A program made the position numbers and the translations under genes. A stretch of DNA of 64,000 nucleotides from Parvibaculum lavamentivorans DS-1 (GTDB lineage Bacteria > Pseudomonadota > Alphaproteobacteria > Parvibaculales > Parvibaculaceae): the NCBI RefSeq assembly GCF_000017565.1, contig NC_009719.1:1612001-1676000 (forward strand). Reading direction: 5' to 3'. This document shows positions 5,112 through 22,048 of this stretch, piece by piece (position 1 is the first letter of the stretch; every line of letters begins with the position of its first letter). The notes under the pieces are model-generated. The model was given only the letters and a program-made list of their open reading frames with translations, made no database searches and was not told the DNA's origin.

Positions 5112-5201
<90 letters not shown>

Positions 5202-5809: not shown

Positions 5810-6571
5810 ATGCAATCCGATCGCGCAATGCCCGGTCCGGCAGGCCTGTCCGCCGTCTTTGTCGAATCCTGGGCGGCGATGCTTGCAGATGCGCCGGGCG
5901 AACCGCCGGTGCGGCTCGGTGCTTGTGCGGCCGACGCGGATATTCCGGCGGGGTTGAGACGCCGCCTTGGTCCGCTTGCGCGCATGGGGGTTGCCTGCGG
6001 CCTCGGCATAGCTCCGGAAGGAGACGCGGACATTGTCTTTTGTTCGCGCTATGGCGACCTCTCGCTCGCGCATCAATTGCTGGCGGCGCTTGTTGCAACC
6101 GAACCGATGTCGCCTGCGGGGTTTTCGATGTCAGTGCATAATGCGGTGCCGGGCGTGCTCGATCTCGCTCGCAAGGCGCGGATCGGCCATACGGCGATTG
6201 CCGCCGGTGCGCAAACTTTCTCGGCGGGCCTTGCGGAAGCATGGCTTCGCCTCGGAGAGCGGCCGCATCTCCGGCTTGTGCTTGTCTTTGCCGATCTTCC
6301 GCTGCCCGACATCTACCGTCAGTTTGCAGATGAGGATGCCGGCGGTGCCGCATTCGCGCTGCGGCTCTCTGCCGAGCCCGGAGAGGCGCGCGCGGTCTCG
6401 ATTACGCGTAGCGCCGCCGGGGACGCATCTCCCGCGGCGCTCGAAAATCCGCCTGCGGAACTTCTTGTAAGACGGCTCGTGGACAGTCTTTGCTCCGATG
6501 CGCCCGCGTTGTCATGGCGTTCGCAAGGATCGCTGTGGCGTTTGGGAAAATCCTCCGATGAAGCGGCTTGA
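5810..6571 (+). CDS. beta-ketoacyl synthase-like chain-length factor (ApeC-type)
   Basis: Probable non-catalytic partner of the APE ketosynthase, helping set polyene length. The 253-residue product matches the short ketoacyl-synthase-like family (PF13723 type): GFSMSVHNAVPGVLDLARK, then IAAGAQTFSAGLAEAW where an active ketosynthase would have its Cys nucleophile. No Cys is present there, so it should not condense by itself. The ATG at 5810 has GGGGAGGG 4 bases upstream; a longer in-frame start at 5783 lacks this. First clear biosynthetic gene of a run whose members overlap or abut up to 21892. Its stop lies inside the next gene. Confidence 0.88.
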   Translation: MQSDRAMPGPAGLSAVFVESWAAMLADAPGEPPVRLGACAADADIPAGLRRRLGPLARMGVACGLGIAPEGDADIVFCSRYGDLSLAHQLLAALVATEPMSPAGFSMSVHNAVPGVLDLARKARIGHTAIAAGAQTFSAGLAEAWLRLGERPHLRLVLVFADLPLPDIYRQFADEDAGGAAFALRLSAEPGEARAVSITRSAAGDASPAALENPPAELLVRRLVDSLCSDAPALSWRSQGSLWRLGKSSDEAA

Positions 6572-7361
6572 TTATTTCTGGAGGCTCTTCGGGACGGGGC
6601 TTTCCTTTTTCTTTTTCGGCATTGGCGGTCTTGTCCTGTCACTCACGGTCTTCCCGCTGATGAACCTCGTGGTCAGGGATCGCGAAAGGCGGGCCGCCCA
6701 TGCGCAGCGCCTCGTGCACATCATGTTTCGCCTGCACCGGAATTTCATGATCGTGATGGGTGTCCTCGATTTCGAGGTGCATAATGCGGAGGCGCTGGCT
6801 ACGGACGAGGGCGTGCTCGTTGTCGCGAACCATCCGACGCTTCTCGATGTCGTGTTGCTGATGTCGCTGATGCGCCGCTCGCAATGCATCGTGAAAGCGG
6901 ACATCTGGCGCAACCCCTTCATGCGCGGCGTGGTTAATGCAACCGGCTATATCCGTAACGACGGCGATGCGGAGACGCTTGTCGCGGATTGTGCACGTAT
7001 GCTCGCCCAGGGACACAACCTTATCGTGTTCCCTGAGGGCTCCCGCACGGTTCCGGACGCACCTGTCAAACTGCAGCGTGGCGTGGCGAATATCGCGATC
7101 CGGGCCGGCTCGCCGATACGTCTGGTTACCATAAGGTGCGAACCGCCGACCCTGATGAAGGGTCAGAAATGGTACGAGATTCCCCCGCGCCGCATGCATT
7201 TTACCATCACGGTGCACGGATTGGTTGAAACCGGGGCTTATATAGGTGAATCTGTGCCATCTATTGCCGCGCGGCGTCTGAACGATTTTCTGGCCGAGTG
7301 GCTGACGGGGGAAGTGGGGCATGGAACGGATCGAAGATCGAATTCGGCGTCTCATCGTTGA
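6558..7361 (+). CDS. lysophospholipid acyltransferase family protein (ApeD-type)
   Basis: Inner-membrane acyltransferase of the PlsC superfamily, 267 residues. An N-terminal membrane segment (residues 13-40) is followed by the catalytic NHPTLLD box (His92, Asp97) and FPEGSRT near residue 155, both diagnostic. In APE clusters this enzyme is thought to help build the lipid anchor of the pigment; the actual acceptor is not known from sequence. The start at 6558 overlaps the CLF stop by 14 bases, and the C terminus overlaps the first ACP gene by 41 bases, so the three are translationally coupled. Confidence 0.87.
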   Translation: MKRLDYFWRLFGTGLSFFFFGIGGLVLSLTVFPLMNLVVRDRERRAAHAQRLVHIMFRLHRNFMIVMGVLDFEVHNAEALATDEGVLVVANHPTLLDVVLLMSLMRRSQCIVKADIWRNPFMRGVVNATGYIRNDGDAETLVADCARMLAQGHNLIVFPEGSRTVPDAPVKLQRGVANIAIRAGSPIRLVTIRCEPPTLMKGQKWYEIPPRRMHFTITVHGLVETGAYIGESVPSIAARRLNDFLAEWLTGEVGHGTDRRSNSASHR

Positions 7362-7599
7362 GACGCTGAATCTGGAAGATATTTCCGCTCAGGACATTGA
7401 CGAGGAAGAGCCGCTTTTCGGGGAAGGGCTCGGGCTCGATTCCATCGATGCTCTCGAAATCGGTATCGAAATTCAGAAGACGTTTGGCGTGAAGATCGAC
7501 TCGAAGGATGAAGATCTTGCCGGTCACTTCTCAAGCGTGAGGGCATTGGCGCGCTTTATCACGCGGCAGCAGCAGGGGCAGGTTCATGAACCGGGATGA
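7321..7599 (+). CDS. acyl carrier protein, first APE copy (ApeE-type)
   Basis: Carries the growing aryl polyene as a 4'-phosphopantetheine thioester. The 92-residue acidic protein has the attachment motif GLGLDSIDALE with Ser41. Its sequence is clearly different from the ACP encoded next door (only the helix II motif is shared), so the pair is unlikely to be a recent duplication. APE systems commonly use two dedicated ACPs with different roles (starter loading and chain extension). It overlaps the preceding acyltransferase by 41 bases and the following ACP by 14. Confidence 0.93.
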   Translation: MERIEDRIRRLIVETLNLEDISAQDIDEEEPLFGEGLGLDSIDALEIGIEIQKTFGVKIDSKDEDLAGHFSSVRALARFITRQQQGQVHEPG

Positions 7600-7837
7600 A
7601 ATTTACGAGAAGCTGAAAGGGTTTCTGATCGAACTCTTCGAAATCCCGGAAGAGCGGATTTCGCTCGATGCCCACCTGTCGGATGATCTCGATCTCGACA
7701 GCATCGATGCAGTCGACCTCATTCTCAAACTCCAGGAATTTATCGGCCGCAAGGTTTCAGCGGAACAGTTCCGCTCGGTGCGGACGGTTCGCGATGTCAT
7801 CGACCAGGTTCATGAGCTTCTCGGCCAGGCGGCCTGA
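7586..7837 (+). CDS. acyl carrier protein, second APE copy (ApeF-type)
   Basis: An 83-residue ACP with the phosphopantetheine site DDLDLDSIDAVD, Ser39, and typical four-helix spacing (helix III region IGRKVSAEQF). No phosphopantetheinyl transferase gene is in the window, so activation must rely on an enzyme encoded elsewhere. It overlaps the first ACP by 14 bases and the following membrane protein by 26. Confidence 0.93.
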   Translation: MNRDEIYEKLKGFLIELFEIPEERISLDAHLSDDLDLDSIDAVDLILKLQEFIGRKVSAEQFRSVRTVRDVIDQVHELLGQAA

Positions 7838-8393
7838 TCCCTGGGCTACGGCCCTGACGATCGCGATGCTGCTCATCCCGATGGCAACGGCGATCGGTCT
7901 GCGCTGGATAGGACCCTGGCCCATCATCGTTGCGCTGGTAGGCTGCATTGCCGCGCGTATTCTCCTTCCGCGGGCGGTGCCCGTTCCTCTTGCAATGACG
8001 ATCTGTCTCGTCGCCGTTGCCGCCGGTGTGCTTGCTGTCGGCACGGTGGCTCCCGACCTTGCGGCGCGGCTCTATCCCGTCTTTATGAGCGTTACGATGC
8101 TTGTCGCCTTTGTCGTTACCCTGTTCCGCCCTCCGAGCATGATCGAGCGTTTCGCCCGGATCATGGAGCCGGATCTCGACATGCGGGGTGTGCGCTACAC
8201 CCGGAAAGTCACTTATGTCTGGGTGGGGTTTTTCGCGCTGAACGCTATCGTCGCCTTGTGGACCGTGCAACAGGGCGACCTTTTCTATTGGGGGCTTTAC
8301 AACGGCTTCATCAGCTATCTTCTTGCAGGCTCTCTCTTCGCAATCGAGTTTACCGTACGCCGGCGCGTGCGCGCGCGGAACGGGCCGGCATGA
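7812..8393 (+). CDS. COG4648-type membrane protein of APE cluster (ApeG-type)
   Basis: A 193-residue polytopic membrane protein with about five hydrophobic segments. It contains the conserved loop FRPPSMIERFARIMEPDL and the segment GLYNGFISYLLAG, which mark the COG4648 family found almost only in APE/xanthomonadin/flexirubin loci. Function is not established; a membrane scaffold or transport role is a guess. The start at 7812 lies inside the ACP gene, giving a 26-base overlap. Its stop overlaps the ligase start as ATGA. Confidence 0.82.
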   Translation: MSFSARRPDPWATALTIAMLLIPMATAIGLRWIGPWPIIVALVGCIAARILLPRAVPVPLAMTICLVAVAAGVLAVGTVAPDLAARLYPVFMSVTMLVAFVVTLFRPPSMIERFARIMEPDLDMRGVRYTRKVTYVWVGFFALNAIVALWTVQQGDLFYWGLYNGFISYLLAGSLFAIEFTVRRRVRARNGPA

Positions 8394-10045
8394 TGGAAAG
8401 TCTCTGGCATTTTCTGTCCACCGCAGCACCTGAAACGCTCGTTGCCACAGATGGTAAACGAGCGGCGACGGCGGGGCGTATTCGCGCAGCCGCGCGGCGT
8501 GTCACAGAGTATCTCGGCGCAGGCGAGGCGCCTGTCGTTCTCTATTGCGAGGATGCCGCGAACTTCATCGCAGGTTTCGCCGGCGCACTTGCCGCCGGCC
8601 GCGAAGTGCGCCTGCCCGGACATGCCGCGCCGGATTATCTGCGCGAAATAGGTGCCGGCGGCGCCGCCTTCGTGAGCGATCTGTACGGCGTGAATGCGAT
8701 CCCGGCCTCTGTCTGCGTGCCGGATGAGGCGGACGCGGTCCTTCCGCCTCTGCCGGATGGCCGGGTTTCTTTCTTCACCTCCGGCTCGTCCGGCGAGCCC
8801 AAGCTCTGCATGAAGTCGCTGCATCAACTCGCGGCGGAAGTTGAGGTGCTGCGCCGCCAATGGGGCGCGCCGGATGGTGCGGTCGCCGGAACCGTTTCGC
8901 ACCAGCATATATACGGAATGCTTTTTCGCGTTCTCTGGCCGCTCTCATCGGGGGCGCGGATTTTTTCGCCGCAACTCGAAACATGGGAAGCGGTGGCGGC
9001 GTGGCTGGAGCCCGGCGGCGTCATTGTATCGAGCCCCGCCCATCTGTCGCGGATACCCGCTGCCGTCCATTTGCCTGTCGTACCTGCGGCGATTTTTTCC
9101 TCGGGCGGACCGCTTTCTCTCCAGGACGCGCAGAATGCAGGCGCGCAGTTTGGCGTTATCCCTGTCGAGGTGTTGGGCAGCACGGAAACGGGGGGCGTCG
9201 CCTGGAGGCAACAAAGCGCTGCGGGTATTCCCTGGACGCCTATGCCCGAGGTCGAGATTCGCTCCGATGACGAAGGCGCGCTTGCGGTCAGGTCGCCCTT
9301 CACCGGCCATGAAGGTTTTCTCTCCATGGGGGACGCGGTTGAGATAAGTGAGGATGGCCGTTTCGTGCTCAAGGGCCGTCTCGACCGTATCGTGAAAGTT
9401 GAGGGCAAGCGGGTGTCGCTGCCGCGCGTGGAGGACGTGCTGAAGTCGCAACCGGAAGTCTCGGACGCTGCGGCTATCGACCTCCCCGCACGGCAGGGTG
9501 CGCTTGGCGCCGCCGTGGTGCTGACGGCCGAGGGCGATGCTCTGCTCGCGCGTATGGGCCGTTTTCGCTTCTCCCGTCATTTGCGCACCGCGCTCAAATC
9601 GCGCCTTGAATCTATGGAGCAGCCGCGCTACTGGCGTTTCATTTCCCGGCTCCCCGAGAATGCGCAGGGAAAACGTGTCGCAGCCGATCTCCGCGCGCTC
9701 TTCGTCTCGCCTGAGCTGCCGGAAATCGATGCGAGCGATGTCGATGGCGACAGTGCCCGGTTCGACCTTCGCCTGCAGCCGGACCTCCGCTGGTTCGAAG
9801 GCCATTTCCCGGATCAGCCGATCCTTCCCGGCGTTGCACAGCTTCACATCGCGGCGAAATTTGCCGAGCGGATATGGGGCTCCGTTTTCGATGGAAGGGA
9901 AATGTCCCGCATCAAGTTCAAACGCGTCATGCAGCCGGAAGAGCGCATATCGCTGGCGCTCGAGAGAAGCGGTTCGCGCCTCGACTTCAAATACAGCATT
10001 GACGGCGAGGTCGTGGCGAGTGGCACGCTCAGGAGCGATCCGTGA
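8390..10045 (+). CDS. fused acyl-ACP ligase and hotdog dehydratase (ApeH-ApeI)
   Basis: A 551-residue fusion of two APE activities that are usually separate proteins. Residues 1-445 form an ANL-superfamily adenylating ligase: P-loop FFTSGSSGEPK at 128-138, then VEVLGSTETGGVAWR and LKGRLDRIVKVEGKRV, the last holding the hinge/Lys region. It should activate the aryl acid and load it on an ACP. Residues about 450-551 are a FabZ/FabA-type hotdog domain with FEGHFPDQPILPG (His near 472), expected to dehydrate 3-hydroxyacyl-ACP. The ATG at 8390 overlaps the previous stop as ATGA; a second Met follows directly. No stop or restart separates the two domains, so this is a true single reading frame. Confidence 0.88.
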   Translation: MMESLWHFLSTAAPETLVATDGKRAATAGRIRAAARRVTEYLGAGEAPVVLYCEDAANFIAGFAGALAAGREVRLPGHAAPDYLREIGAGGAAFVSDLYGVNAIPASVCVPDEADAVLPPLPDGRVSFFTSGSSGEPKLCMKSLHQLAAEVEVLRRQWGAPDGAVAGTVSHQHIYGMLFRVLWPLSSGARIFSPQLETWEAVAAWLEPGGVIVSSPAHLSRIPAAVHLPVVPAAIFSSGGPLSLQDAQNAGAQFGVIPVEVLGSTETGGVAWRQQSAAGIPWTPMPEVEIRSDDEGALAVRSPFTGHEGFLSMGDAVEISEDGRFVLKGRLDRIVKVEGKRVSLPRVEDVLKSQPEVSDAAAIDLPARQGALGAAVVLTAEGDALLARMGRFRFSRHLRTALKSRLESMEQPRYWRFISRLPENAQGKRVAADLRALFVSPELPEIDASDVDGDSARFDLRLQPDLRWFEGHFPDQPILPGVAQLHIAAKFAERIWGSVFDGREMSRIKFKRVMQPEERISLALERSGSRLDFKYSIDGEVVASGTLRSDP

Positions 10046-11109
10046 ATGGCGTAAACGCATGTGCGGTCATTCCGACATACAAGCACACGGAGGCACTTGG
10101 CCGGATTGTCCAGTTTCTGCGCGGGCAAGGATTGCCTGTCATTATCGTCGATGATGGAAATGCGCCCGATGCCGCGCAGCGCATTGCCTGTCTCGCGGCA
10201 TCGCATGATGGCGTGGAGCTGTGCCGGCGCGATGTGAATGGCGGCAAGGGCGCTGCGGTGCTCGATGGTCTCGCCCGCGCCGAGATGCGCGGCTTTACGC
10301 ATGCGGTGCAAGTCGACGCCGATGGCCAGCACGATCTCGCGCGCGTGGCGGATCTGCTGGCGTCCGCCCGCACGCATCCCCATGCCCTCGTCACGGGCGA
10401 GCCGGTCTATGACGAAACGGTGCCGCAGAGCCGGCGCATCGCCCGCTGGATAACGCATTTCTGGGTAGCCGTGAACACGCTTTCCTTTCGCATCGTCGAC
10501 AGCATGTGCGGCTTCCGCGTTTATCCCGTGGCCGAGACACTTGCCGCGGCGCGTGCTGCCGGCATTTCCCGGCGTATGGCGTTCGACACGGAGATACTGG
10601 TGCGCCTCGTCTGGCGCGGCGTGGATGTCGTGACGCTTCCGGTCGCCGTTACCTATCCCGCCGGCAATCATTCCAATTTTGCGATGTGGGACGATAATCT
10701 GCGTCTTTCCGGAATGCACGCCAAGCTGTTCTTTCTCATGCTTGCGCGGCTGCCCGGCATCCTTCTTTCCCGCATGCTCGGTCTCTCTCCTTCGTCCTCC
10801 CGCTCTTCATCTCACTGGGCCGCCATAGGCGAACGTGGCAGCTATGCGGGGCTCTGGCTCCTCGGCCTTGTCTACCGGCTCTTTGGCCGTCATGTCGCCG
10901 GTCGTGCTCTTCTTCTTTCTCACAGGTACGGAGCAGCGGCGCGGTTCTCTCGGCTATCTCGCTCGCGCTCATGCCGCCGGTCTCATCGCTTCGAAGCCGA
11001 ACTGGCTTTTGTCGTTCCGACATTTCCTCACATTCGCCTCTTCAGCCGTCGACAAGCTTGCCGCATGGACAGGCAACATTCCGCCTTCGGCCGTCGACGG
11101 TGTGGATGA
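10042..11109 (+). CDS. GT2 glycosyltransferase running into a frameshifted acyltransferase N terminus (ApeJ-type)
   Basis: Starts at a GTG overlapping the previous stop (GTGA). Residues 1-240 are a family 2 glycosyltransferase: AVIPTYKH, IIVDDGN, VNGGKGAAVLDG and the metal-binding VDADGQHD, probably using an undecaprenyl or nucleotide sugar. After a short linker the frame continues into HWAAIGERGSYAGLWLL and YRLFGR, which look like the start of an LPLAT acyltransferase domain. From about 10890 the frame stops resembling the family. The remaining residues to 11109 are basic, Arg/Ser-rich and read as out of frame, while the rest of the acyltransferase continues one frame over. The real product is either a GT2 protein with a junk tail or part of a broken GT2-LPLAT fusion. 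Confidence 0.78.
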   Translation: MNGVNACAVIPTYKHTEALGRIVQFLRGQGLPVIIVDDGNAPDAAQRIACLAASHDGVELCRRDVNGGKGAAVLDGLARAEMRGFTHAVQVDADGQHDLARVADLLASARTHPHALVTGEPVYDETVPQSRRIARWITHFWVAVNTLSFRIVDSMCGFRVYPVAETLAAARAAGISRRMAFDTEILVRLVWRGVDVVTLPVAVTYPAGNHSNFAMWDDNLRLSGMHAKLFFLMLARLPGILLSRMLGLSPSSSRSSSHWAAIGERGSYAGLWLLGLVYRLFGRHVAGRALLLSHRYGAAARFSRLSRSRSCRRSHRFEAELAFVVPTFPHIRLFSRRQACRMDRQHSAFGRRRCG

Positions 11110-11746
11110 GGGCGCTTTCGCCGCTGCCAAGCAAGGCGGCGAGGGCGCGGTGGTGCTGACGGCACATTTCGGCAACCCAGAAATCCTTCGCGCTCTGGCG
11201 ACGCTGGGCGACCGCTGGCGCGTCAACGTGCTGGTGCACACTGCCCACGCCGTCCGTTTCAACCGTCTTATCGGTGAGGTTTCGGGCTCGGCCAGCGTCC
11301 GGGTCATTCAGGTGACCGAGGTCGGGCCGGACACGGCAATCCTGCTCCAGGAAGCGATCGCGAGGGGTGAGTGGATCGTCATGGCTGCAGACAGGGTGCC
11401 CGTCAGCGGCAATGAACGTATAAGCTGGGTGCCGTTTCTCGGTGAGCCCGCGCCTTTTCCGCAAGGTCCGCACATTCTGGCCGGGCTGCTCAAATGTCCG
11501 GTCTACCTGCTTTTCTGCCTTCGCGAGGGCGGACGCCATCGCATCCGCTTCGAACGGTTCGCGGACAGGATCGAACTGCCGCGCAAAGGCCGTGAAGAAG
11601 CGCTGGCCTTGTCCGTCGGGCGATATGCGGCACGGCTGGAAAGTCATTTGCGTATCGCGCCGCTACAATGGTTCAATTTTTTCGATTTCTGGCGTCCGGC
11701 GGGGCTCCAGCCGCCGGTTTCTTCCGACAAGTTCGAGGGGCAGTAA
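10835..11746 (+). CDS. LPLAT-superfamily acyltransferase, main part (COG4261-like), frame displaced from its N terminus
   Basis: Predicted acyltransferase that transfers acyl chains onto the aryl polyene lipid. Family resemblance starts at SPVVLFFFLTGTEQRRGSL (about 10895) and continues through VVLTAHFGNPEILRAL (the His-x4-acid-like catalytic box, HFGNPE) and VMAADRVPVSGNER, as in HtrB/LpxL-like proteins. The listed start is a GTG at 10835 that gives 303 residues, but the first 20 (MAAMRGSGSSALSTGSLAVM) are not family-like. An ATG at 10892 is the other candidate; neither has a good ribosome-binding site. The matching N-terminal helix lies in the upstream frame, so this is probably the 3' part of a frameshifted fusion gene. 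The stop is 1 base before the ammonia-lyase start. Confidence 0.72.
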   Translation: MAAMRGSGSSALSTGSLAVMSPVVLFFFLTGTEQRRGSLGYLARAHAAGLIASKPNWLLSFRHFLTFASSAVDKLAAWTGNIPPSAVDGVDEGAFAAAKQGGEGAVVLTAHFGNPEILRALATLGDRWRVNVLVHTAHAVRFNRLIGEVSGSASVRVIQVTEVGPDTAILLQEAIARGEWIVMAADRVPVSGNERISWVPFLGEPAPFPQGPHILAGLLKCPVYLLFCLREGGRHRIRFERFADRIELPRKGREEALALSVGRYAARLESHLRIAPLQWFNFFDFWRPAGLQPPVSSDKFEGQ

Positions 11747-11747
11747 A

Positions 11748-13334
11748 GTGGACGCAGTAGCCGACGATATTTCCGGTGAAGTGGTATTCGGCGAGACGCG
11801 CCTCACCATTGAGCATGTCCGTGCCATTGCGGCGGGCATCGCGCCCTCGCGTCTCGGCGCCGGTGCCGGCTTCCGGGAAGCTGTCGCGCGCTCAGCCGCT
11901 CATGTCGATGAGACGCTCCGCCGCGATGGCATGATCTATGGCGTCACGACCGGCTATGGCGATTCATGCACGACGCCTGTCTCCGACGAGTTGATTGCCG
12001 AATTGCCGCTCCACCTCACAAGGTTTCACGGAGTTGGCACGGGGCGCATTCTTTCGGAAGCCGAAACGCGTGCGGTCATGGCTGTTCGTCTTGCCTCGCT
12101 CGTTCACGGCTGGTCCGGCGTCAGTCTCGGCCTTGTCGAACTCCTCGCCGAAATGTTGAAGCAAAACATCCTGCCCATGATCCCCGCCGAGGGATCGGTC
12201 GGCGCGAGCGGTGACCTGACGCCGCTCAGCTATGTCGCGGGTGCGCTGGCTGGGGAGCGGATGGTCCGCTTCAACGGACGGGAGATGATGTCGGCGGATG
12301 CGTTCCGTGAAGCAGGTCTCGCGCCCATCGCGCTGCGTCCGAAAGAGGCGCTGGCTGTGATGAACGGCACCGCCGTCATGTCCGGTCTCGGCGCCATCGC
12401 TTTCTCCAAGGCGATCCATCTCGCCGCGCTGTCGACGCGCCTCACCTCGCTCGTCTGCATGGGCTTGATGGGCAATCCCGCGCATTTCGACGAGCGGCTT
12501 CACAGTGCAAAGCCGCATCCCGGTCAGATGCTTGTTGCCGCCCGCATTCGCGCCGATCTCGCCGCCTTCGCGCGCAGGCATGAGCCGTCGCGCCTGCAGG
12601 ACCGGTATTCCATCCGCTGTGCGCCGCATGTCATCGGCGTGCTGGAGGACATGTTGCCTTCCTTCCGCACCATTCTTGAAACGGAAATCAACAGCGCCAA
12701 TGACAACCCGCTGATCGATCCCGCCAGCGGCGACATTCTTCATGGCGGCCATTTCTATGGCGGCCATGTCGCCTTCACGATGGACAGTCTGAAAAACCTC
12801 GTTGCGAACATCGCCGATCTGATGGACCGGCAGATGACGCTTCTCGTCGACACGCGGTTCAATAATGGTCTCCCCGCAAATCTTTCGGGCGTCGAAGGTC
12901 CGCGCGCGGCCATCAATCACGGGTTGAAGGCGCTCCAGATCGCAACCTCCGCCTGGACCGCCGAAGCGTTGAAACTCACCATGCCGGCCAGCGTCTTTTC
13001 GCGATCGACCGAATGTCACAATCAGGACAAGGTTTCGATGGGCACCATCGCCGCGCGCGACGCGCTGCGCGTGCTCGAACTCACGGAACAGGTGGCAGCG
13101 GCCCTTGCCATCGCCTGCCGCCAGGCAATAAGGCTTCGCCTCCGCAGCGGCGAGATTGCGGCATCCGATCTTGAAGGCCCGCTCACCGCTTTCGTCGAGG
13201 AACTTGAAGCCGCCATTCCCTTCATCGAGGAAGACAGGCCGCTCGATCGCCTGCTTGGCGATCTTTGCGCCGGTATCGATCGCGGTGCTTGGACGCTTGA
13301 TTGGCCGTTCGGGCGGGCAGGGGGGAGCCTATGA
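11748..13334 (+). CDS. aromatic amino acid ammonia-lyase (HAL/PAL/TAL family)
   Basis: MIO-dependent enzyme that eliminates ammonia from an aromatic amino acid to give an arylacrylate, here probably the polyene starter. From the GTG at 11748 (GAGGGG 8 bases upstream) the product is 528 residues, normal for bacterial family members. Visible: YGVTTGYG with catalytic Tyr64, GSVGASGDLTPLSY with the MIO triad Ala153-Ser154-Gly155, SANDNPLID, and HGGHFYGGHV. In the selectivity loop LHLTRFHGVGTG the pair aligned with Ser-His of histidine lyases and His-Leu of tyrosine lyases reads Phe93-His94, so it is probably not a simple histidine-degradation enzyme. No hut genes are nearby. It overlaps the thioesterase by 4 bases. 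Confidence 0.9.
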   Translation: MDAVADDISGEVVFGETRLTIEHVRAIAAGIAPSRLGAGAGFREAVARSAAHVDETLRRDGMIYGVTTGYGDSCTTPVSDELIAELPLHLTRFHGVGTGRILSEAETRAVMAVRLASLVHGWSGVSLGLVELLAEMLKQNILPMIPAEGSVGASGDLTPLSYVAGALAGERMVRFNGREMMSADAFREAGLAPIALRPKEALAVMNGTAVMSGLGAIAFSKAIHLAALSTRLTSLVCMGLMGNPAHFDERLHSAKPHPGQMLVAARIRADLAAFARRHEPSRLQDRYSIRCAPHVIGVLEDMLPSFRTILETEINSANDNPLIDPASGDILHGGHFYGGHVAFTMDSLKNLVANIADLMDRQMTLLVDTRFNNGLPANLSGVEGPRAAINHGLKALQIATSAWTAEALKLTMPASVFSRSTECHNQDKVSMGTIAARDALRVLELTEQVAAALAIACRQAIRLRLRSGEIAASDLEGPLTAFVEELEAAIPFIEEDRPLDRLLGDLCAGIDRGAWTLDWPFGRAGGSL

Positions 13335-14313: not shown

Positions 14314-16532
14314 GCCTGGCGCGGTGGCCGGCTTTCCTGATCGCGTTCGGGTTTATTGCCGCTCTCCTCTTTGCCGCCACCCGCATCGAAAGAGCCATCG
14401 ACACCGACATCATTTCGCTTCTTCCGGCCGACACGCATGACCCCGCGCTCGCTGCCGCCGTCACCCGGGCAAACGAGGTAGCGTCGAACCGCGTCGCCTT
14501 TGCCGTAGAGGGCGGTACGGCGGCCTTGCGGCGCTCCGCCCTTGCCGATCTTTCCGAGGTGCTTTCCGCGACCGGCCATTTCCGTGCCGCCGATGCCGAC
14601 GGCGAAGCACTCTGGCGCTGGTTCTTCGCGCATCGCGCATCGCTCCTCTGTCCGGCGGACCGGACGCTTCTCGAGGCGCGAGAGGGTGAGGTCATTGCGA
14701 ACGATGCCCTGCGCCAGTGGTATGCGCCGGGAAGCACCGGCGCAGGCGGCTTGCTGAAAAGCGATCCCTTCCTTCTCACCAACCGCCTGCTCGGCTGTCT
14801 TCTGCCGCGCGCGTTCCAGCCGGGAACGGCGGGTATGCTGTCGGGCAGCATAGAAGCCTCGGTCTTTCGTCTCGATGTGCAGGACGAGATCGCCGGCGCC
14901 GTCGCCGCCTGGCGCGCGGCATGGGAACCGCAGGGGCTTGCGCTCTTGCGGGCAGGCGCCGTCTTTCACGCCGCTTACGGTGCGGAGCGGGCGCGCATGG
15001 AAGTCTCAGCTATCGGCGGGATAACGCTCGCCGCCATTCTCCTTCTCTACTGGCTCATGTTCCGGTCGTTTCGTGCACCGGCGCTCGCGCTTTCGATGGT
15101 CGTCTATGCGCTCGTCACCGGCCTCACCGCCACGCTTCTGGCCTTTGGCGGCATCCATGTCATGGCGCTCGTCTTCGGCGCCGCGCTGATCGGCATGGTG
15201 GTGGACTACACCACCTATTATCTCGTCACCGGCATTGGCGAAGCGCCCGGCTCGAGCGCCGCGCGCCGCGCGCGCCTCTTCAAACCGTTGACGCTCGGCA
15301 TGCTCACCTCTATCGGCGCCTTTGCGGCACTGCTCGCCTTTCCCGTTCCGGCCTTCCGGCAGGTCGCCGTCTTCGGCATGGCGGGCCTCATCGCGGCATG
15401 GGCCGGCACGCTCTGGCTGGTGCCTTTCGTCGAGGGCGGCCGCGTGGCGACGGGGCCGGGCGCTGCCTGGATCGCGCGCCATGCGGATGTCTGGCTCGCC
15501 CGGACACCGCGTCCGCGCTGGCTGGGTGTTGCCGTGCTGGTTGTTCTTCTGTTTCTCGCGGCGGGCTGGCGGTTTGGCAGCGTGCTGGACGATGTGCGCG
15601 GCCTGCAGGCGCCCTCTCCCGTTCTCGCGGCAGAGGAAGCGCGTCTGCGCGAGCTAGCGGGCTTCGCGCCCTCCACCTCCTTCATTCTTGTGCGCGGCGG
15701 TTCCGCCGCGGAGGCCATTGCCCGCGAAGAGGCTTTGCTCGCCGCACTTCCGCCGGAGGACGGCGAAGCTGTCATTCTGGCGGCCAGCCGTATCGACCCC
15801 TCACCCGGCGTGCGGCAGCGCGATGGGGATCTTCTGAAGGCGCGGCTCATCGCTCCCCATCTGCAGCCGCTTGCCGCGGCGCTCGGCGTGGCAGACGCCT
15901 CTCCCTATGAGCGCGGGGCGGAGGCGCCGCTCCCGCCGCTCGCCGCCGCGCTTCGAGGCGAAACCTCCGGCACCTATTGGTCCATCCTGCCGGTTGCGCG
16001 GGCCTTTCCCCTGCCACCGGGCGGGGAGGGCGCATGGCAGCTGGTCGATCCGGTTTCCATCTATTCGGGCCTCTTCGCCGATTATCGCCGTCTCGCCGTC
16101 CTGGGCGTCGCCGCCGCCTGTTTCGCCACCGCATTGATGTTGCTTCTGATCTATCGCCGCCTCGCGGCTCTGCGCATCCTCGTTCCGGCGCTTCTCGCGG
16201 TTCTGGTGACTCCCGCCATTGTCATGCTGCTCGGCCTGCCCTTTTCCTTCTTTTCCGCCATGGGCCTCTTTCTGGTCGTCGGCGCGGGGGTCGATTATGC
16301 AATCTTCCAGCGCGAACATCCCGGCGAAGATGGTAAATGGACCAGGGTGGGCATCGTCCTCGCCGCCTTGATGACCTGTATCTCGGTCGGGCTCCTCGGC
16401 CTCAGTTCGGTCTTGCCCGTAAAGAGTTTCGGCGTCACCGTGGCGGTGGGCATTTTCGTGTCGCTGGCGCTTTCGCCCCTCGCGAGAGGACGAAGCGTGC
16501 GCGTGTCGGGTGGGGAAGAAAGTGAATCCTGA
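14310..16532 (+). CDS. MMPL/RND-type exporter (ApeM-type)
   Basis: A 740-residue inner-membrane transporter with the RND/MMPL layout: one N-terminal helix, a large periplasmic loop (about residues 30-220), a five-helix block (225-420) with GMVVDYTTYYLVTG, a second loop, and a final five-helix block starting near 590 with GAGVDYAIF. The D-Y pairs in each half are the proton-relay positions of MMPL proteins. It likely extracts the pigment lipid from the inner membrane and hands it to the LolA-like protein. ATGA overlap with the previous gene; the flavoenzyme start lies inside its last codons. Confidence 0.9.
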   Translation: MSLARWPAFLIAFGFIAALLFAATRIERAIDTDIISLLPADTHDPALAAAVTRANEVASNRVAFAVEGGTAALRRSALADLSEVLSATGHFRAADADGEALWRWFFAHRASLLCPADRTLLEAREGEVIANDALRQWYAPGSTGAGGLLKSDPFLLTNRLLGCLLPRAFQPGTAGMLSGSIEASVFRLDVQDEIAGAVAAWRAAWEPQGLALLRAGAVFHAAYGAERARMEVSAIGGITLAAILLLYWLMFRSFRAPALALSMVVYALVTGLTATLLAFGGIHVMALVFGAALIGMVVDYTTYYLVTGIGEAPGSSAARRARLFKPLTLGMLTSIGAFAALLAFPVPAFRQVAVFGMAGLIAAWAGTLWLVPFVEGGRVATGPGAAWIARHADVWLARTPRPRWLGVAVLVVLLFLAAGWRFGSVLDDVRGLQAPSPVLAAEEARLRELAGFAPSTSFILVRGGSAAEAIAREEALLAALPPEDGEAVILAASRIDPSPGVRQRDGDLLKARLIAPHLQPLAAALGVADASPYERGAEAPLPPLAAALRGETSGTYWSILPVARAFPLPPGGEGAWQLVDPVSIYSGLFADYRRLAVLGVAAACFATALMLLLIYRRLAALRILVPALLAVLVTPAIVMLLGLPFSFFSAMGLFLVVGAGVDYAIFQREHPGEDGKWTRVGIVLAALMTCISVGLLGLSSVLPVKSFGVTVAVGIFVSLALSPLARGRSVRVSGGEESES

Positions 16533-17742
16533 TGTCGTGATTATCGGCGCCGGGCCGGCGGGTTCGGTTGCGGCTGCCATGCTGGCCGGTGCGGGCTTTT
16601 CGGTCGAGGTTCTGGAGCGGGCGCATTTTCCGCGCTTCTCCATCGGCGAAAGCCTGTTGCCGCAGGCCATGGAGTGGCTCGCAGAAGCGGATTTGCTGCG
16701 CGATGTCGTCGAGGCTGGCTTCCAGCACAAGAACGGGGCCATGTTCCGTCACGGCGACAGGGAGGAGAGCTTCGACTTCCGTATGAAAAGTTCGGATGGC
16801 TGGGGCACGACCTATCAGGTTCGCCGCGACAAGTTCGACGATCTCCTCGCAAAGGGTGCGGTGCGCAAGGGCGCGAAGGTGAGCTTCGGACAAACCGTCA
16901 TCGCGATGCGGCCCGATCCCGTTGCCCCCAGCCTCACGGTGCGCGACGAAGAAGGCAATGAGCGCGAGATCACCGCACGTTTCGTTCTCGATGCGAGCGG
17001 CTTCGGCCGCGTGCTGGCGCGTCTTCTCGATCTTGAATCGCCAGCGGGCTTCCCCGATCGCATGTCGATCTTCACCCATGTCGAAGACAACATCCCGCCA
17101 CAGGCATACGACCGGAACAAGATCCTCATAACGGTCAATCCGCGAAACAGCGAAATCTGGTACTGGATGATCCCGTTGGCGGATGGTCTCTGTTCGATGG
17201 GCGTCGTCGGTAAACCCGAACATCTTGCACCCTATGGTTCGACGCGAGAGGAACAGCTCGCCTCACTTGTCGCCGAATCCGGTCTGATGGGTGAGCTTCT
17301 CGTGAATGCGCGCCGCGTGCGCGATGTTGGCGAAATATCGGGCTATGCCGCCCGTGTCAGCAGCCTCACCGGCCCCGGCTACGCGCTGCTCGGCAATGCG
17401 GGCGAGTTTCTCGATCCCGTGTTTTCCTCAGGCGTCACCATCGCGCTCAAATCGGCCTCGCTCGCAACGCATGCGCTTGTCAGGCAGCTTAAGGGTGAAA
17501 CGCCCGACTGGGACAAGGAGTTCGCACAGCCGCTTGCTCGAGGCGTCGAGACTTTCCGCGCCTATGTCAGCGGCTGGTATGACGGCTCGCTGCAGAAAAT
17601 TATCTTCAGCCAGCCGGCGGATGCGAACCAGATCAAGAAGATGATCACCTCGGTGCTTGCCGGCTACGCCTGGGACGAGGCCAACCCCTTTGTCCGAGAG
17701 CCGGGCAAATATCTCAAGATGGTGGAAGAGTTGTGCGGCTGA
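16522..17742 (+). CDS. flavin-dependent halogenase-like FAD oxidoreductase
   Basis: A 406-residue FAD enzyme. Residues 5-34 hold the dinucleotide-binding fold (VVIIGAGPAGSVAAAMLA then VLERAHF), followed by GESLLP. WYWMIP at residues 213-218 fits the WxWxIP motif that separates flavin-dependent halogenases from monooxygenases. Lys70 in HKNGAMF sits where phenolic halogenases keep the catalytic Lys. Related proteins occur in APE, xanthomonadin and flexirubin loci. It may halogenate or otherwise oxidise the aryl head group; activity is not proven by motifs, and a flavin reductase would have to come from elsewhere. The GTG at 16522 was chosen for the GGGGAAG just upstream; GTG 16510 would add four residues. 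Confidence 0.82.
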   Translation: MNPDVVIIGAGPAGSVAAAMLAGAGFSVEVLERAHFPRFSIGESLLPQAMEWLAEADLLRDVVEAGFQHKNGAMFRHGDREESFDFRMKSSDGWGTTYQVRRDKFDDLLAKGAVRKGAKVSFGQTVIAMRPDPVAPSLTVRDEEGNEREITARFVLDASGFGRVLARLLDLESPAGFPDRMSIFTHVEDNIPPQAYDRNKILITVNPRNSEIWYWMIPLADGLCSMGVVGKPEHLAPYGSTREEQLASLVAESGLMGELLVNARRVRDVGEISGYAARVSSLTGPGYALLGNAGEFLDPVFSSGVTIALKSASLATHALVRQLKGETPDWDKEFAQPLARGVETFRAYVSGWYDGSLQKIIFSQPADANQIKKMITSVLAGYAWDEANPFVREPGKYLKMVEELCG

Positions 17743-18305
17743 TCGGTTTCATTCTGCCGGTATTGCTCCTCGTCGCCGGTTGTGCGGCCGGTGCGCCGCC
17801 CTTGCCCGCGCAGCAACGGATTGCGCCGGGCGTTTCGCTGACGCTGCCCGAGGTGCCGCCTTTCGGTCCCTCCGCCAATGCGGTGCAGCTCGTCCGGGCA
17901 AGCCATGGCGGCAGGGTGGATCGCTTTCAGGCCACAATCGAAACGTCGCCGTCGCGCTTCGCGCTCGCCATGACCGTGCCTTCCGGTCCCTTGGTCATGA
18001 CCATCGAATGGCATGAGGGCGCCGTGGCCGTACGGCGCGGTATCGCACCGGAAAGCCTGCCAGCCGCGCGGCTCCTTGCCGATTTCATGCTGGTCTATGC
18101 ACCGGAAGAGGCGCTCCGCGCGGCGCTCACCGGTGGAACGCTGGTTACATCGGGCAGCGGCGCGCGGCGGATTTTCCGCAATGGCGACCTTCTCGTCGAG
18201 GTACGGCGGCCCACGGGAAACCCCTGGGAGGGTTCGGCGCAGCTCGAAAATTTCGCTTATGATTACCAGCTCGCCATCGACAGCCAGTGGGTAGCGCCGG
18301 AATGA
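17733..18305 (+). CDS. DUF3261 lipoprotein of APE cluster
   Basis: A 190-residue predicted outer-membrane lipoprotein. The N-terminal signal MRLIGFILPVLLLVAGC ends in a lipobox with Cys17. The mature part is beta-rich, with no catalytic motif that I recognise. DUF3261 proteins are restricted largely to aryl polyene-type loci and are presumed, like LolB, to receive the pigment lipid at the outer membrane; that is inference. It starts at a GTG 10 bases before the flavoenzyme stop and overlaps the ketosynthase start (ATGA). Confidence 0.83.
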   Translation: MRLIGFILPVLLLVAGCAAGAPPLPAQQRIAPGVSLTLPEVPPFGPSANAVQLVRASHGGRVDRFQATIETSPSRFALAMTVPSGPLVMTIEWHEGAVAVRRGIAPESLPAARLLADFMLVYAPEEALRAALTGGTLVTSGSGARRIFRNGDLLVEVRRPTGNPWEGSAQLENFAYDYQLAIDSQWVAPE

Positions 18306-19474
18306 ATGCGCCCGTCTACATCGCCGCATCCTCGGTCGCCAATGCGCTTGGCGCGGATTGGGCACAAGTGTCGGATGCGCTTTTCGCGGGCGATCCGTCG
18401 GGGCTCGCGCAAACGGAAACACTCAGCGACGGCCGCACGCCGCCTGTCGGCCGGCTGCGTTTTCCCCTTGCCGACCTGCCTCCCGCACTTGCCGAGTGGG
18501 AAAGCCGCAACAATCGTCTCATCCATCATTGCCTTCTGCCGCTTCTGCCCGCAATCCACGAAGCCCTTTCGGCGTACGGCCCGTCCCGCGTCGGCATCGT
18601 GATCGGCACCAGCACATCCGGCATCGAGAGTTGGGAACATGCGCTGGCGCGGAAGATGACGGGCGGCGTCTGGCCGAATGATTTTCATTTCAGGCGTCAC
18701 GAGCTTGGCGATCCCGCCGCCTTCGTTCAGGCGGTCACGGGCGCGGGCGGCCCCTGCTACGGCGTCTCCACTGCTTGCACATCCGGTGGCAAGGCCATTG
18801 TCAGCGCCGCGCGCCTGCTGCAGGCGGGGCTCTGCGATGCGGTCATCACCGGCGGCGTCGATACGCTGTGCGGCCTGACGCTCAATGGTTTCTCGGTTCT
18901 CGATTCCATCTCTTCCGCCCGCTGCAATCCCTTCAGCACAAATCGCGATGGCATCAATATCGGCGATGGCGGTGCGCTCTTCCTGCTGACGCGCGAAGAA
19001 AATGACGTCCGCATCGCCGGCTGGGGTGAGAGCTCCGATGCCCACCATCTGAGCGCGCCGGACCCGGAAGGCGGCGGTGCCGCGCTCGCCATCGGCCAGG
19101 CGCTCGGTCATGCGGGCATTGAAGCCGCCGACATTGCCTATCTCAATCTCCATGGCACGGCGACGCGCCTCAACGATGCGATGGAGGCGCAGGTCACGCA
19201 GCGGATTTTCGGCGACGATCTCCCCTGCAGTTCGACCAAGGCGCTGACGGGCCATATGCTCGGCGCGGCGGGCTCCTGCGAGGCGGCATTCGTCTCCATG
19301 GCGCTTTCGCGCGGCGAGGCGCCGCCGCATCTCTGGGACGGCGAAGCAGACCCGGCGCTTCCCGTGCTTCATCTCACCGATCGTCCCGGCGAGCGTGTCG
19401 AAGGCCGCTACATGATGAGTTGTTCCTATGCCTTTGGCGGCAACAATCTCGCCCTCATCCTGGCGCGCGCGTGA
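18302..19474 (+). CDS. beta-ketoacyl-ACP synthase (ApeO-type)
   Basis: A 390-residue catalytically complete ketosynthase: nucleophile Cys159 in STACTSGGKA, His in NLHGTATRLND and His in KALTGHMLGAAG. It extends the arylacyl chain by decarboxylative condensation with malonyl-ACP, probably as a heterodimer with a chain-length factor such as the 5810-6571 product. Start chosen at the ATG of the ATGA overlap with the lipoprotein; an in-frame upstream start would add five residues. It ends one base into the next start. Confidence 0.9.
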   Translation: MNAPVYIAASSVANALGADWAQVSDALFAGDPSGLAQTETLSDGRTPPVGRLRFPLADLPPALAEWESRNNRLIHHCLLPLLPAIHEALSAYGPSRVGIVIGTSTSGIESWEHALARKMTGGVWPNDFHFRRHELGDPAAFVQAVTGAGGPCYGVSTACTSGGKAIVSAARLLQAGLCDAVITGGVDTLCGLTLNGFSVLDSISSARCNPFSTNRDGINIGDGGALFLLTREENDVRIAGWGESSDAHHLSAPDPEGGGAALAIGQALGHAGIEAADIAYLNLHGTATRLNDAMEAQVTQRIFGDDLPCSSTKALTGHMLGAAGSCEAAFVSMALSRGEAPPHLWDGEADPALPVLHLTDRPGERVEGRYMMSCSYAFGGNNLALILARA

Positions 19475-19932
19475 TGCAGCAGGCGTTTCCCCATATCGGC
19501 GAGCTCGTCCGGCACAGCGGCACCATGCTGCTGATCGACCGGCTGGTCGAAGCGTCGCAGACCCATGCGGTCTCGGAAGTGACGATCTCCGAACACGCCA
19601 CCTTCTTTCGCCCCGGCGCGGGCGTTCCCGCCTATGTCGGCCTTGAATATCTGGCGCAGACGATTGCCGCCTATGACGGCGAGCTCCGCCGCGGGAGCGG
19701 CGAGCCGCCCGCTATAGGTTTTCTTCTCGGCACACGGCGCTATAAATCGACGCGGCATTATTTTGCGGACGGCGAAACGCTTCGCGTCCGCGTCGATTTA
19801 ACTTTCAACGAGAACGGCATGGCGGCTTTCGACGGTGTCATCCGTATCGGCGGCGAGGAATGCGTCACCGCCACCATCAATGTCTACCGGCCCGAAGACG
19901 GTTCGTTCGACATGCCGGGAGAAGCAACATGA
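19474..19932 (+). CDS. 3-hydroxyacyl-ACP dehydratase-like hotdog protein (ApeP-type)
   Basis: A 152-residue single-domain hotdog protein. HSGTMLLIDRLVEAS and GLEYLAQTIAAYDGE correspond to the FabZ/FabA-like core. It should remove water from the 3-hydroxyarylacyl-ACP during polyene growth. It is the second dehydratase of the operon; the other is fused to the ligase (8390-10045), and APE systems are known to use two such proteins. TGATG overlap with the ketosynthase; ATGA overlap with the reductase. Confidence 0.87.
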   Translation: MQQAFPHIGELVRHSGTMLLIDRLVEASQTHAVSEVTISEHATFFRPGAGVPAYVGLEYLAQTIAAYDGELRRGSGEPPAIGFLLGTRRYKSTRHYFADGETLRVRVDLTFNENGMAAFDGVIRIGGEECVTATINVYRPEDGSFDMPGEAT

Positions 19933-20666
19933 GCGAAAATGCAAAGCGCGGCATTCTCGTTACCGGTGCCAGCAAGGGCATCGGCCGCGCCATCGCGCTC
20001 CGCGTCGCACGCGATGGTTTCCCCGTCACCGTGCATTACGGTTCCGACAAGGCAGGCGCCGACGAAACGCGCCGCGCCATCGAGGAAGCCGGCGGCACGG
20101 CGCGCATCCTCGGCTTCGATATTGCGAACCGCGCCGCATCCCTTGCCGCCCTCGAAGCCGATCTCGCAGCCTATGGCGCTTATTGGGGCATCGTCCTCAA
20201 TGCGGGCATCGCGCGCGACAATGCATTCCCCGCCCTCACCGGCGAGGATTGGGACGGCGTCGTCGATACCAATCTCGGCGGCTTCTTCAATGTCGTCCAT
20301 CCGCTCGTCATGCCGATGATAAGGCGGCGCGATGGCGGCCGCGTCGTCACCATTTCGTCGGTCTCCGGCATCACCGGCAATCGCGGCCAGGTGAATTACA
20401 GCGCCGCCAAGGCCGGCATCATCGGCGCCACCAAGGCGCTGGCGGTCGAGCTCGCGACGCGGAAGATCACCGTCAATTGCGTGGCGCCCGGCGTCATAGA
20501 AACCGCTATGATCGAGGCGGCGCCGGTCGAGGAAATCCTGAAGATGATCCCGATGCAGCGTCTCGGGCAACCGGACGAGATCGCCGGCATCGTCGCCTTC
20601 ATTCTGTCGGATGAGGCGGGCTACATGACGCGGCAGGTCATATCGGTAAACGGGGGCATGTGCTGA
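19929..20666 (+). CDS. 3-ketoacyl-ACP reductase, SDR family (ApeQ-type)
   Basis: A 245-residue FabG-like short-chain dehydrogenase. It has the cofactor loop TGASKGIGRA at residues 13-22, LNAGIARDN, catalytic Ser in TISSVSG, and Tyr/Lys in YSAAKAG. The C terminus YMTRQVISVNGGMC is the FabG tetramer tail. It reduces the 3-keto group to the hydroxyl with NADPH in each extension cycle. Overlaps the dehydratase by 4 bases, and its last base is the first of the next ATG. Confidence 0.9.
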   Translation: MSENAKRGILVTGASKGIGRAIALRVARDGFPVTVHYGSDKAGADETRRAIEEAGGTARILGFDIANRAASLAALEADLAAYGAYWGIVLNAGIARDNAFPALTGEDWDGVVDTNLGGFFNVVHPLVMPMIRRRDGGRVVTISSVSGITGNRGQVNYSAAKAGIIGATKALAVELATRKITVNCVAPGVIETAMIEAAPVEEILKMIPMQRLGQPDEIAGIVAFILSDEAGYMTRQVISVNGGMC

Positions 20667-21892
20667 TGCGTCGGGTGGTGGTAACGGGCATGGCGGGGAT
20701 CACGCCGCTCGGCAGCGAATGGAGCGAGATCCGTACCGCCATGGCAGCCGGCCGCACCGGCGTCCGCTATATCGGCGATTGGGACAGGCTCGGCGATTTG
20801 AAGACGCGGCTCGGCGCACCGGCCGCCTGTTTCGAACATGACAGGATTTTTCCGCGCAAGAAGATGCGCTCCATGGGCCGCGTCGCCGCGCTCGCCGTGC
20901 ATTCGGCGGAGCAGGCGCTCGGTCATGCGGGTCTTGCGGAAGATCCCGTTCTCACCTCAGGCCGCACCGGCGTCGCCTTCGGTTCCTCCTATGGATCGAC
21001 CGAGCCGACAAAGGGCTTCGTCCATTTCATGGATACGGGCGAGGCGACCGGCCTCAGCGCCATGAGCTACATCAAGATGATGAGCCACACGGCGGCCATC
21101 AATATCGGCATCTTCTTCGGCCTGCAGGGCCGCGTCATCACCACGTCGTCGGCCTGCACGTCGGGCTCGCAGGCGGTCGGCTATTCCTACGAAGCCATCA
21201 AATACGGTCATGCGGATGTGATGATCGCCGGCGGCGCCGAAGAGCTTTGCCCCACCATGGCCATCGTCTTCGACACGCTCTTTGCGACAAGCTGCCATAA
21301 TGATGCGCCCGAAACCGCACCGCGTCCCTATGATCGCGACCGCGACGGCCTCGTCATCGGCGAAGGCGCCGCCTCGCTCATTCTCGAAGAGCGTGAACAT
21401 GCGCTGGCGCGCGGCGCAACGATCCTTGCCGAGATCGTCGGCTTCGGCACAAACATGGATGGTTCGCACGTCACCGATCCGAAATCGGAAACCATGGGCG
21501 GCGCGCTTGAATTGGCGCTCGCCGATGCCCGGTTGCCGGCGCAGGCCATCGGCTTCGTCAGCGGCCATGGCACCGCGACGCTGCAGGGCGATGTTGCCGA
21601 AACCATCGCCACCTCGCGCGTCCTCGGCCCCGCCGTGCCGATCCATTCGCTGAAAGGCTATTTCGGGCACTCGCTCGGCGCCTGCGGCGCCATCGAGGCC
21701 TGGCTCACCATCGAGATGATGCGCGAGAAAAGCTTCGCGCCCAATGTGAACCTGCGCAACGTCGACGAGAAATGCGGCGAGCTCGACTACATCGTCGGCG
21801 GCTTCCGCGACATCGATGCCGAATTCGCCATGTCCAACAATTTCGCTTTCGGCGGCGTCAACACCTCGCTGATCTTCAAGCGCCCGGCTTGA
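20666..21892 (+). CDS. beta-ketoacyl-ACP synthase (ApeR-type)
   Basis: A 408-residue ketosynthase, last gene of the APE run. Nucleophile Cys164 in TTSSACTSGSQAVG, His in VSGHGTATLQGD and His in LKGYFGHSLGACGA are all present, so it should be active. In studied APE systems the terminal KS is thought to carry out the first condensation with the starter; that role is transferred from the family. The KS/CLF and two KS genes lie at opposite ends of this operon. A 156-base gap without clear terminator separates it from the ABC exporter genes. Confidence 0.9.
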   Translation: MRRVVVTGMAGITPLGSEWSEIRTAMAAGRTGVRYIGDWDRLGDLKTRLGAPAACFEHDRIFPRKKMRSMGRVAALAVHSAEQALGHAGLAEDPVLTSGRTGVAFGSSYGSTEPTKGFVHFMDTGEATGLSAMSYIKMMSHTAAINIGIFFGLQGRVITTSSACTSGSQAVGYSYEAIKYGHADVMIAGGAEELCPTMAIVFDTLFATSCHNDAPETAPRPYDRDRDGLVIGEGAASLILEEREHALARGATILAEIVGFGTNMDGSHVTDPKSETMGGALELALADARLPAQAIGFVSGHGTATLQGDVAETIATSRVLGPAVPIHSLKGYFGHSLGACGAIEAWLTIEMMREKSFAPNVNLRNVDEKCGELDYIVGGFRDIDAEFAMSNNFAFGGVNTSLIFKRPA

Positions 21893-22048
21893 TGCCGCCC
21901 TCCGCCGCCGTGGCAAAGCCCGGCAGGCGGATCGCGCCGGGGGTTGAAGAAAAAATGTAAACCATGCTGTCTCATCTGTCCGCTGGCTGAGGCACCGGGG
22001 CCTTTGTGTCGCAGTGATTTTTCTCCGTAGAAAGCGTATCCTTTGCGG

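Follow-up and report, generated by a model that had tools for sequence, protein, structure and literature searches.

A 64,000-nucleotide stretch of the Parvibaculum lavamentivorans DS-1 genome (contig NC_009719.1, positions 1,612,001 to 1,676,000 of the forward strand; hereafter the window) carries, on its + strand between positions 5810 and 21892, a tightly packed set of genes that, judged from its sequence, is an operon for a yellow, membrane-bound aryl polyene (APE) pigment. It represents a known kind of system in a widespread layout and is nearly but not fully intact. We assign a probability of roughly 0.86 to this reading, which combines an APE operon of common layout, a pathway whose starter would come from the operon's own ammonia-lyase, and an apeJ gene split by a 17-bp deletion in the type strain DS-1T. 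A preliminary description of the same DNA had proposed a one-strand APE-type operon at this place, and domain matches together with collinearity to the Escherichia coli CFT073 cluster confirm it. The same description had called the operon complete and its mix of an ammonia-lyase with a halogenase-like enzyme unfamiliar, and neither statement held: apeJ is broken, and the mix is the commonest layout in our sample (36 of 71 genomes). The present analysis is thus mainly a correction and makes no case for a new pathway. Its most interesting point is the apeJ lesion in a strain described as non-pigmented.

The operon comprises 18 open frames, or 17 genes if the split frame for a family 2 glycosyltransferase and an acyltransferase is counted as one ancestral gene. 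Their order is apeC-D-E-F-G-(H+I)-J-(lyase)-K-L-M-(flavin halogenase-type enzyme)-N-O-P-Q-R; apeA and apeB are absent (Table 1). About 17 genes overlapping by 1-41 bases had been reported. The gene number stands, and with the best starts (7812 for apeG, 11748 for the lyase and 13747 for the LolA-like gene) 15 of the 17 junctions overlap by 4-41 bases; the other two are a 1-base gap between the acyltransferase end and the lyase start and a 218-base overlap of the glycosyltransferase and acyltransferase frames, which is due to the apeJ lesion. Genes were assigned using Pfam and NCBIfam profiles and tblastn against the CFT073 cluster at 1e-3. Two operon proteins, the COG4648-like protein and the exporter, gave no Pfam match and were named by place and by similarity to the CFT073 ape genes; the profiles placed all the others. 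The APE core is present with a ketosynthase and chain length factor, a second ketosynthase, two acyl carrier proteins, a ketoreductase, ApeI- and ApeP-type dehydratases and a ligase. The export set is present as well, consisting of LolA-like, MMPL and DUF3261 proteins plus acyltransferases, with the exporter recognised as stated above. The only reductase is a FabG-type short-chain dehydrogenase/reductase, and no separate enoyl reductase occurs among the operon proteins. The ligase-dehydratase fusion noted earlier is indeed encoded in a single frame, and its top NCBIfam profile is 4-coumarate--CoA ligase at a score below the cut-off of that profile. The reported absence of a methyltransferase was likewise upheld for the operon proteins, none of which matched a methyltransferase family, the rest of the genome not having been searched for a distant one.

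Comparison with described clusters supports the assignment (statements cited to papers refer to excerpts of them). The APE cluster of E. coli CFT073 consists of apeA-R (Table 1 in PMC8253772), and the window matches apeC to apeR in the same order. Compared with CFT073, apeA and apeB (methyltransferase) are missing from the window, apeH and apeI are joined into one gene and apeJ is in two pieces; ApeJ of CFT073 is a glycosyltransferase-acyltransferase fusion encoded in one frame of 1677 bp, as in the Parvibaculum relatives. The window has two additional genes: the lyase separates apeJ from apeK, and the halogenase-type flavoenzyme separates apeM from apeN. Two Pseudoalteromonas megaplasmid clusters (L043 and L045) are collinear with the window gene for gene, carry both additions at the same places and, like the window, show no annotated methyltransferase in the stretch. 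They differ in having separate genes for ligase and dehydratase and for glycosyltransferase and acyltransferase, and in a MipA/OmpV gene that follows the cluster. The clusters of 11 Parvibaculum genomes have the content and order of the window wherever they are covered, including the apeH+apeI fusion in the 10 that cover it, but where the window is broken they read through from glycosyltransferase to acyltransferase in a single frame. The preliminary description had named close neighbours with the same content and a known product as grounds for abandoning its view; such neighbours exist as far as gene content goes.

Within the window's family, every one of the 12 loci with coverage of the gene (10 from Parvibaculum and two others) shows the ligase-dehydratase fusion, as does Cupriavidus; the two functions are separate in the two Pseudoalteromonas clusters and in E. 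coli. A distant alphaproteobacterial locus (L041, genome G049) gave a match to the ligase part alone. This locus, from the same class as the window, is polyene-like but has another gene arrangement, and its distant relative of the flavoenzyme (30% identity) is encoded on the strand opposite to the acyl carrier protein, ligase and ketosynthase genes.

Two other pigment systems share parts of this logic. The flexirubin of Chitinophaga pinensis is esterified with a dialkylresorcinol (PMC3992019). Genes for such a synthesis are missing among the window's operon proteins, all of which fit ape roles, and neither DarA nor DarB was assigned among them, the rest of the genome not having been searched. 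Xanthomonadin-type clusters share with the window a type II polyketide synthase for a polyene and, in Xanthomonas and Azoarcus, an annotated halogenase; their starter is derived from chorismate via a XanB2-type enzyme, in place of which the window operon has a lyase (PMC3691225, PMC3949708). A XanB2-type chorismatase was not matched among the operon proteins, a search that did not extend to the rest of the genome.

We surveyed 398 Pseudomonadota genomes, including that of the window, of which 71 exceeded the ApeP cut-off, and counted as neighbourhood everything within 20 kb of ApeP. Lyase and flavoenzyme both lie in this neighbourhood in 36 genomes from 13 families. The flavoenzyme occurs there without the lyase in 10 genomes, the lyase without the flavoenzyme in five, and neither in 20, giving a halogenase-type enzyme in 46 of 71 and a lyase in 41 of 71. 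The two enzymes were searched for at E at most 1e-60 in 67 of the 71 genomes and separately in G000, G072, G078 and G300. Only lyase matches with E below 1e-200 were counted; weaker ones (about 1e-64 to 1e-96) were taken as other lyases such as HutH and excluded, as for G550, which is counted as flavoenzyme-only and has an excluded match (1.6e-86) about 12 kb from ApeP. The counts also exclude five phylum and six class genomes with ApeP matches under the cut-off; of the six, G049 and G181 were searched for the two enzymes all the same. Sixteen of 337 genomes in the alphaproteobacterial sample exceeded the ApeP cut-off, and counting by eye gave the flavoenzyme beside ApeP in eight of them, the lyase in eight and both in six. 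The lyase sits between apeJ and apeK in those loci read that cover both sides. An APE cluster on the megaplasmid of Cupriavidus metallidurans CH34 (L044) contains the halogenase-type enzyme with no ammonia-lyase within the 27 kb read; the two additions are therefore independent of each other.

The named loci with the flavoenzyme (n = 6) are four metagenome-assembled genomes of Parvibaculum, one uncultured member of the Rhodobiaceae and one distant member of the Verrucomicrobiales. Within Parvibaculum, 12 of 27 genomes including that of the window, some of them incomplete, have a match to the flavoenzyme gene with E below 1e-200, a patchy distribution that suggests loss or gain within the genus. 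A 2013 paper already described halogenase genes in clusters of this sort and their absence from Lysobacter and Xylella (PMC3691225), and an ammonia-lyase is implied for the APE cluster of Vibrio fischeri (PMC5851621). A literature search that left most subscription papers outside its scope returned no paper linking aryl polyenes with Parvibaculum, and within the same scope aryl polyene, ammonia-lyase and halogenase occurred together only in unrelated work.

Based on this gene set, we propose the following pathway. The lyase would remove ammonia from an aromatic amino acid, with tyrosine as the most likely substrate and 4-coumarate as its product, and the ligase half of the apeH+apeI fusion would load 4-coumarate on an ApeE/F carrier. 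ApeO/ApeC and ApeR would act as a type II polyketide synthase and extend this starter with malonyl units. Reduction by ApeQ and dehydration by ApeI/ApeP, with no enoyl reduction, would leave a conjugated polyene, whose phenolic head may be halogenated by the flavoenzyme. ApeK, ApeD and ApeJ would free the chain and link it to a lipid, and ApeG, L, M and N would carry the product to the outer membrane.

Several observations count against this overall picture. The ApeP-like and DUF3261 proteins gave no tblastn match in the CFT073 cluster at 1e-3 and are paired with their counterparts by family and place only. Histidine ammonia-lyase profiles match the lyase as well. At the positions that we take to be the selectivity pair of such lyases, an ungapped profile alignment gives F-H, unlike a textbook tyrosine ammonia-lyase, and alignment with plant phenylalanine ammonia-lyase gave another register. 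The apeJ gene is broken, and DS-1T is described as non-pigmented (PMC3368416). Azoarcus BH72 makes arcuflavin (C41H52O4), which is non-brominated despite an annotated halogenase in the cluster (PMC3949708); such a gene therefore need not yield a halogenated pigment. Finally, E. coli remains partly pigmented and still contains late intermediates when it lacks apeJ (PMC8253772), which means that an absence of colour may have causes beyond this break. We weigh these points below, enzyme by enzyme.

The presence of an own ammonia-lyase, as first described, is well founded. No other protein of the genome matches PF00221, and the A155-S156-G157 triad is conserved in all nine aligned sequences. We take this triad to be the methylidene-imidazolone (MIO) mark of aromatic ammonia-lyases, and assignment to the MIO-type aromatic ammonia-lyases is supported by sequence. 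Its best NCBIfam profile is the BagA/FevW tyrosine ammonia-lyase with 410.5 bits, compared with 382.8 bits for the best histidine ammonia-lyase profile, neither of which reaches its cut-off. Tyrosine seems the most likely substrate, with 4-coumarate as the predicted product. The flexirubin lyase FlxA is similar to histidine ammonia-lyase at one motif and yet uses tyrosine, and in that system a start by lyase and ligase has been demonstrated experimentally (PMC3992019). One could argue that the window lyase is not the starter source at all and acts elsewhere, and that the ligase loads 4-hydroxybenzoate, the substrate predicted for the lyase-free E. coli cluster (PMC8253772). The flavoenzyme clusters without this lyase, in Cupriavidus and in the 10 survey genomes mentioned above, would be in line with such a role. 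We consider it quite improbable, however, given the frequency and the fixed place of the lyase in APE clusters, the 4-coumarate--CoA ligase profile at the top of the ligase matches, and the flexirubin precedent.

The halogenase-type flavoenzyme exceeds the cut-off of the Pfam family Trp_halogenase (PF04820) and scores 150.1 bits against the profile of the CmlS halogenase, short of its cut-off of 900. Sequence comparison with solved structures placed it closest to 3nix, labelled flavoprotein/dehydrogenase, followed by several halogenases. It contains GxGxxG, WxWxIP and a lysine aligned with the lysines of solved halogenases. These we presume to serve flavin-dependent halogenases, the lysine in catalysis. 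All 10 aligned orthologues have WxWxIP and the lysine unchanged. A further 30 loci, obtained from 30 of 39 genomes, have WxWxIP in 30 of 30, as counted with a frame picker that ignored this motif, and the lysine pattern in 29 of 30; the remaining locus (L059) also has the lysine, though its surroundings differ slightly. A halogenase is a fair reading of this protein, which may halogenate the phenolic head of the pigment. The halogenase-like label of the preliminary description is accordingly supported by the motifs; its corollary of a halogenated product is tempered by the non-brominated arcuflavin.

The alternative is that the enzyme leaves the pigment unhalogenated; it would then hydroxylate or dehydrogenate the aryl head or the polyene, or have no part in making the pigment. 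In our estimate this reading falls only slightly short of even odds. It agrees with the label of the nearest solved relative, with halogenase profile scores under the curated NCBIfam cut-offs, with the proximity of the family to reductases and monooxygenases, with arcuflavin, and with the residue preceding WxWxIP, where the 10 aligned orthologues have I or V and the solved halogenases 8zop and 3e1t have G. Conservation of WxWxIP and lysine speaks against it, as do the brominated pigments of Xanthomonas clusters with a halogenase gene and the non-brominated ones of Lysobacter clusters without it (PMC3691225), although the Xanthomonas and Azoarcus halogenases are likened to the window enzyme by annotation and not by sequence. 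If halogenation of the pigment is nevertheless what the enzyme does, halogenated aryl polyenes could be far more widespread than recorded, with the enzyme acting on heads of both starter types, that of Parvibaculum included. We regard this extension as rather doubtful. It builds on the 46 of 71 genomes and on motif residues kept in every locus checked, with and without the lyase; in the literature passages, a role of the halogenase-type gene was found demonstrated for xanthomonadin-type pigments only.

The lesion in apeJ is defined by comparison with the nearest relative, G011. Relative to G011 the window lacks 17 bp at 10892/10893, upon which the apeJ frame leaves the acyltransferase and one frame is split in two. 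All 11 congeneric clusters with coverage keep the frame unbroken here, and a programmed frameshift was rejected on that ground. In one of these genomes (G004, locus L035) the fused glycosyltransferase-acyltransferase frame ends early inside the acyltransferase, further downstream, and measures 462 codons compared with at least 573 in the other ten. The break may be a sequencing error, but the published DS-1T genome is a finished Sanger sequence at 16x (PMC3368416). An ATG at 10892 spans the deletion junction, and the acyltransferase that follows retains an H-x4-E motif in its sequence. We assume that this motif has its usual role in acyltransferases. Cupriavidus, Pseudoalteromonas and two members of the window's family from other genera encode glycosyltransferase and acyltransferase in separate frames, and the two apeJ pieces could therefore still work. 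Lipid attachment in DS-1T is thus probably impaired or carried out by two separate pieces.

We also determined the ratio of nonsynonymous to synonymous substitutions (dN/dS) relative to G011. It ranged from 0.04 to 0.26 in 16 gene segments and was 0.115 for the acyltransferase after the break; the two acyl carrier proteins and the first part of the lyase were left out, and synonymous distances were about 1 in several segments.

These data bear on the phenotype of DS-1T. Lack of yellow pigment with the operon expressed had been proposed as an argument against an APE operon; the strain is indeed described as non-pigmented, an argument that applies only if the operon is expressed there. Colonies on complex medium are still pinpoint-sized when over two weeks old (PMC3368416). 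The lack of colour may result from the broken apeJ, from lack of expression, or from slow growth that hides it. A possibility we rate somewhat below even is that the operon of DS-1T is a decaying or silent relic, whose pathway no longer works or is unexpressed. The deletion in a frame that all covered congeners keep continuous, the description of the strain and the patchy occurrence of the flavoenzyme gene in the genus fit this view. However, all other operon genes are open, and dN/dS was low in every segment tested, a measure of interspecies divergence that is blind to very recent decay. Given the ATG at the junction and the retained H-x4-E motif, the acyltransferase may still work, and very slow pinpoint colonies may mask colour. 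A non-pigmented type strain with a nearly intact pigment operon and a single split gene makes both apeJ and operon silence easy to test.

Table 1. Features of the aryl polyene operon in the P. lavamentivorans DS-1 window (percentages refer to the E. coli CFT073 genes).
Feature	Position	Strand	Basis
apeC-like chain length factor	5810..6571	+	PF13723, E 3.7e-42
apeD-like lysophospholipid acyltransferase (LPLAT)	6558..7361	+	PF01553; 46% to CFT073 gene
apeE-like acyl carrier protein	7321..7599	+	PF00550
apeF-like acyl carrier protein	7586..7837	+	PF00550
apeG-like COG4648 membrane protein	7812..8393	+	no Pfam match; 40% to gene at apeG place
apeH+apeI fusion, AMP ligase and ApeI-like dehydratase	8390..10045	+	PF00501, PF13193, PF22818
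apeJ 5' part, family 2 glycosyltransferase, acyltransferase start, out-of-frame tail	10042..11109	+	PF00535; one frame with acyltransferase in congeners
17-bp deletion junction relative to nearest relative	10892..10893	+	comparison with G011
apeJ 3' part, LpxL-like acyltransferase, possible restart ATG at 10892	10892..11746	+	PF03279; H-x4-E motif kept
MIO-type aromatic amino acid ammonia-lyase	11748..13334	+	PF00221, E 2.3e-153; top NCBIfam BagA/FevW, below cut-off
apeK-like thioesterase	13331..13750	+	PF13279
apeL-like LolA-like carrier	13747..14313	+	PF19574
apeM-like MMPL/RND exporter	14310..16532	+	no Pfam match; 28% to gene at apeM place
flavin-dependent halogenase-type enzyme	16510..17742	+	PF04820, E 1.2e-22; CmlS profile, E 7.6e-44, below cut-off; WxWxIP and lysine kept
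apeN-like DUF3261 protein	17733..18305	+	PF11659
apeO-like ketosynthase	18302..19474	+	NF006618, over cut-off
apeP-like dehydratase	19471..19932	+	PF22817, E 2.2e-15
apeQ-like ketoreductase (FabG2)	19929..20666	+	TIGR01831, over cut-off
apeR-like ketosynthase	20660..21892	+	NF006587, over cut-off

A tRNA-Ser gene (cga) lies at 5112-5201, about 600 bases upstream of the operon, and is a possible integration site. A recently acquired island was considered in view of this gene and set aside on G+C content alone, which is 0.634 within the operon and 0.625 and 0.627 on its two sides. A promoter scan was uninformative: it returned three promoter-like sites, all on the minus strand, compared with 2.9 in shuffled sequences. 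On the same strand, 3' of the operon, positions 22043-25863 encode a HlyD-type membrane fusion protein and a large ABC transporter frame. In locus L028 the distance between apeR and the HlyD gene is about 2 kb greater than in the window.

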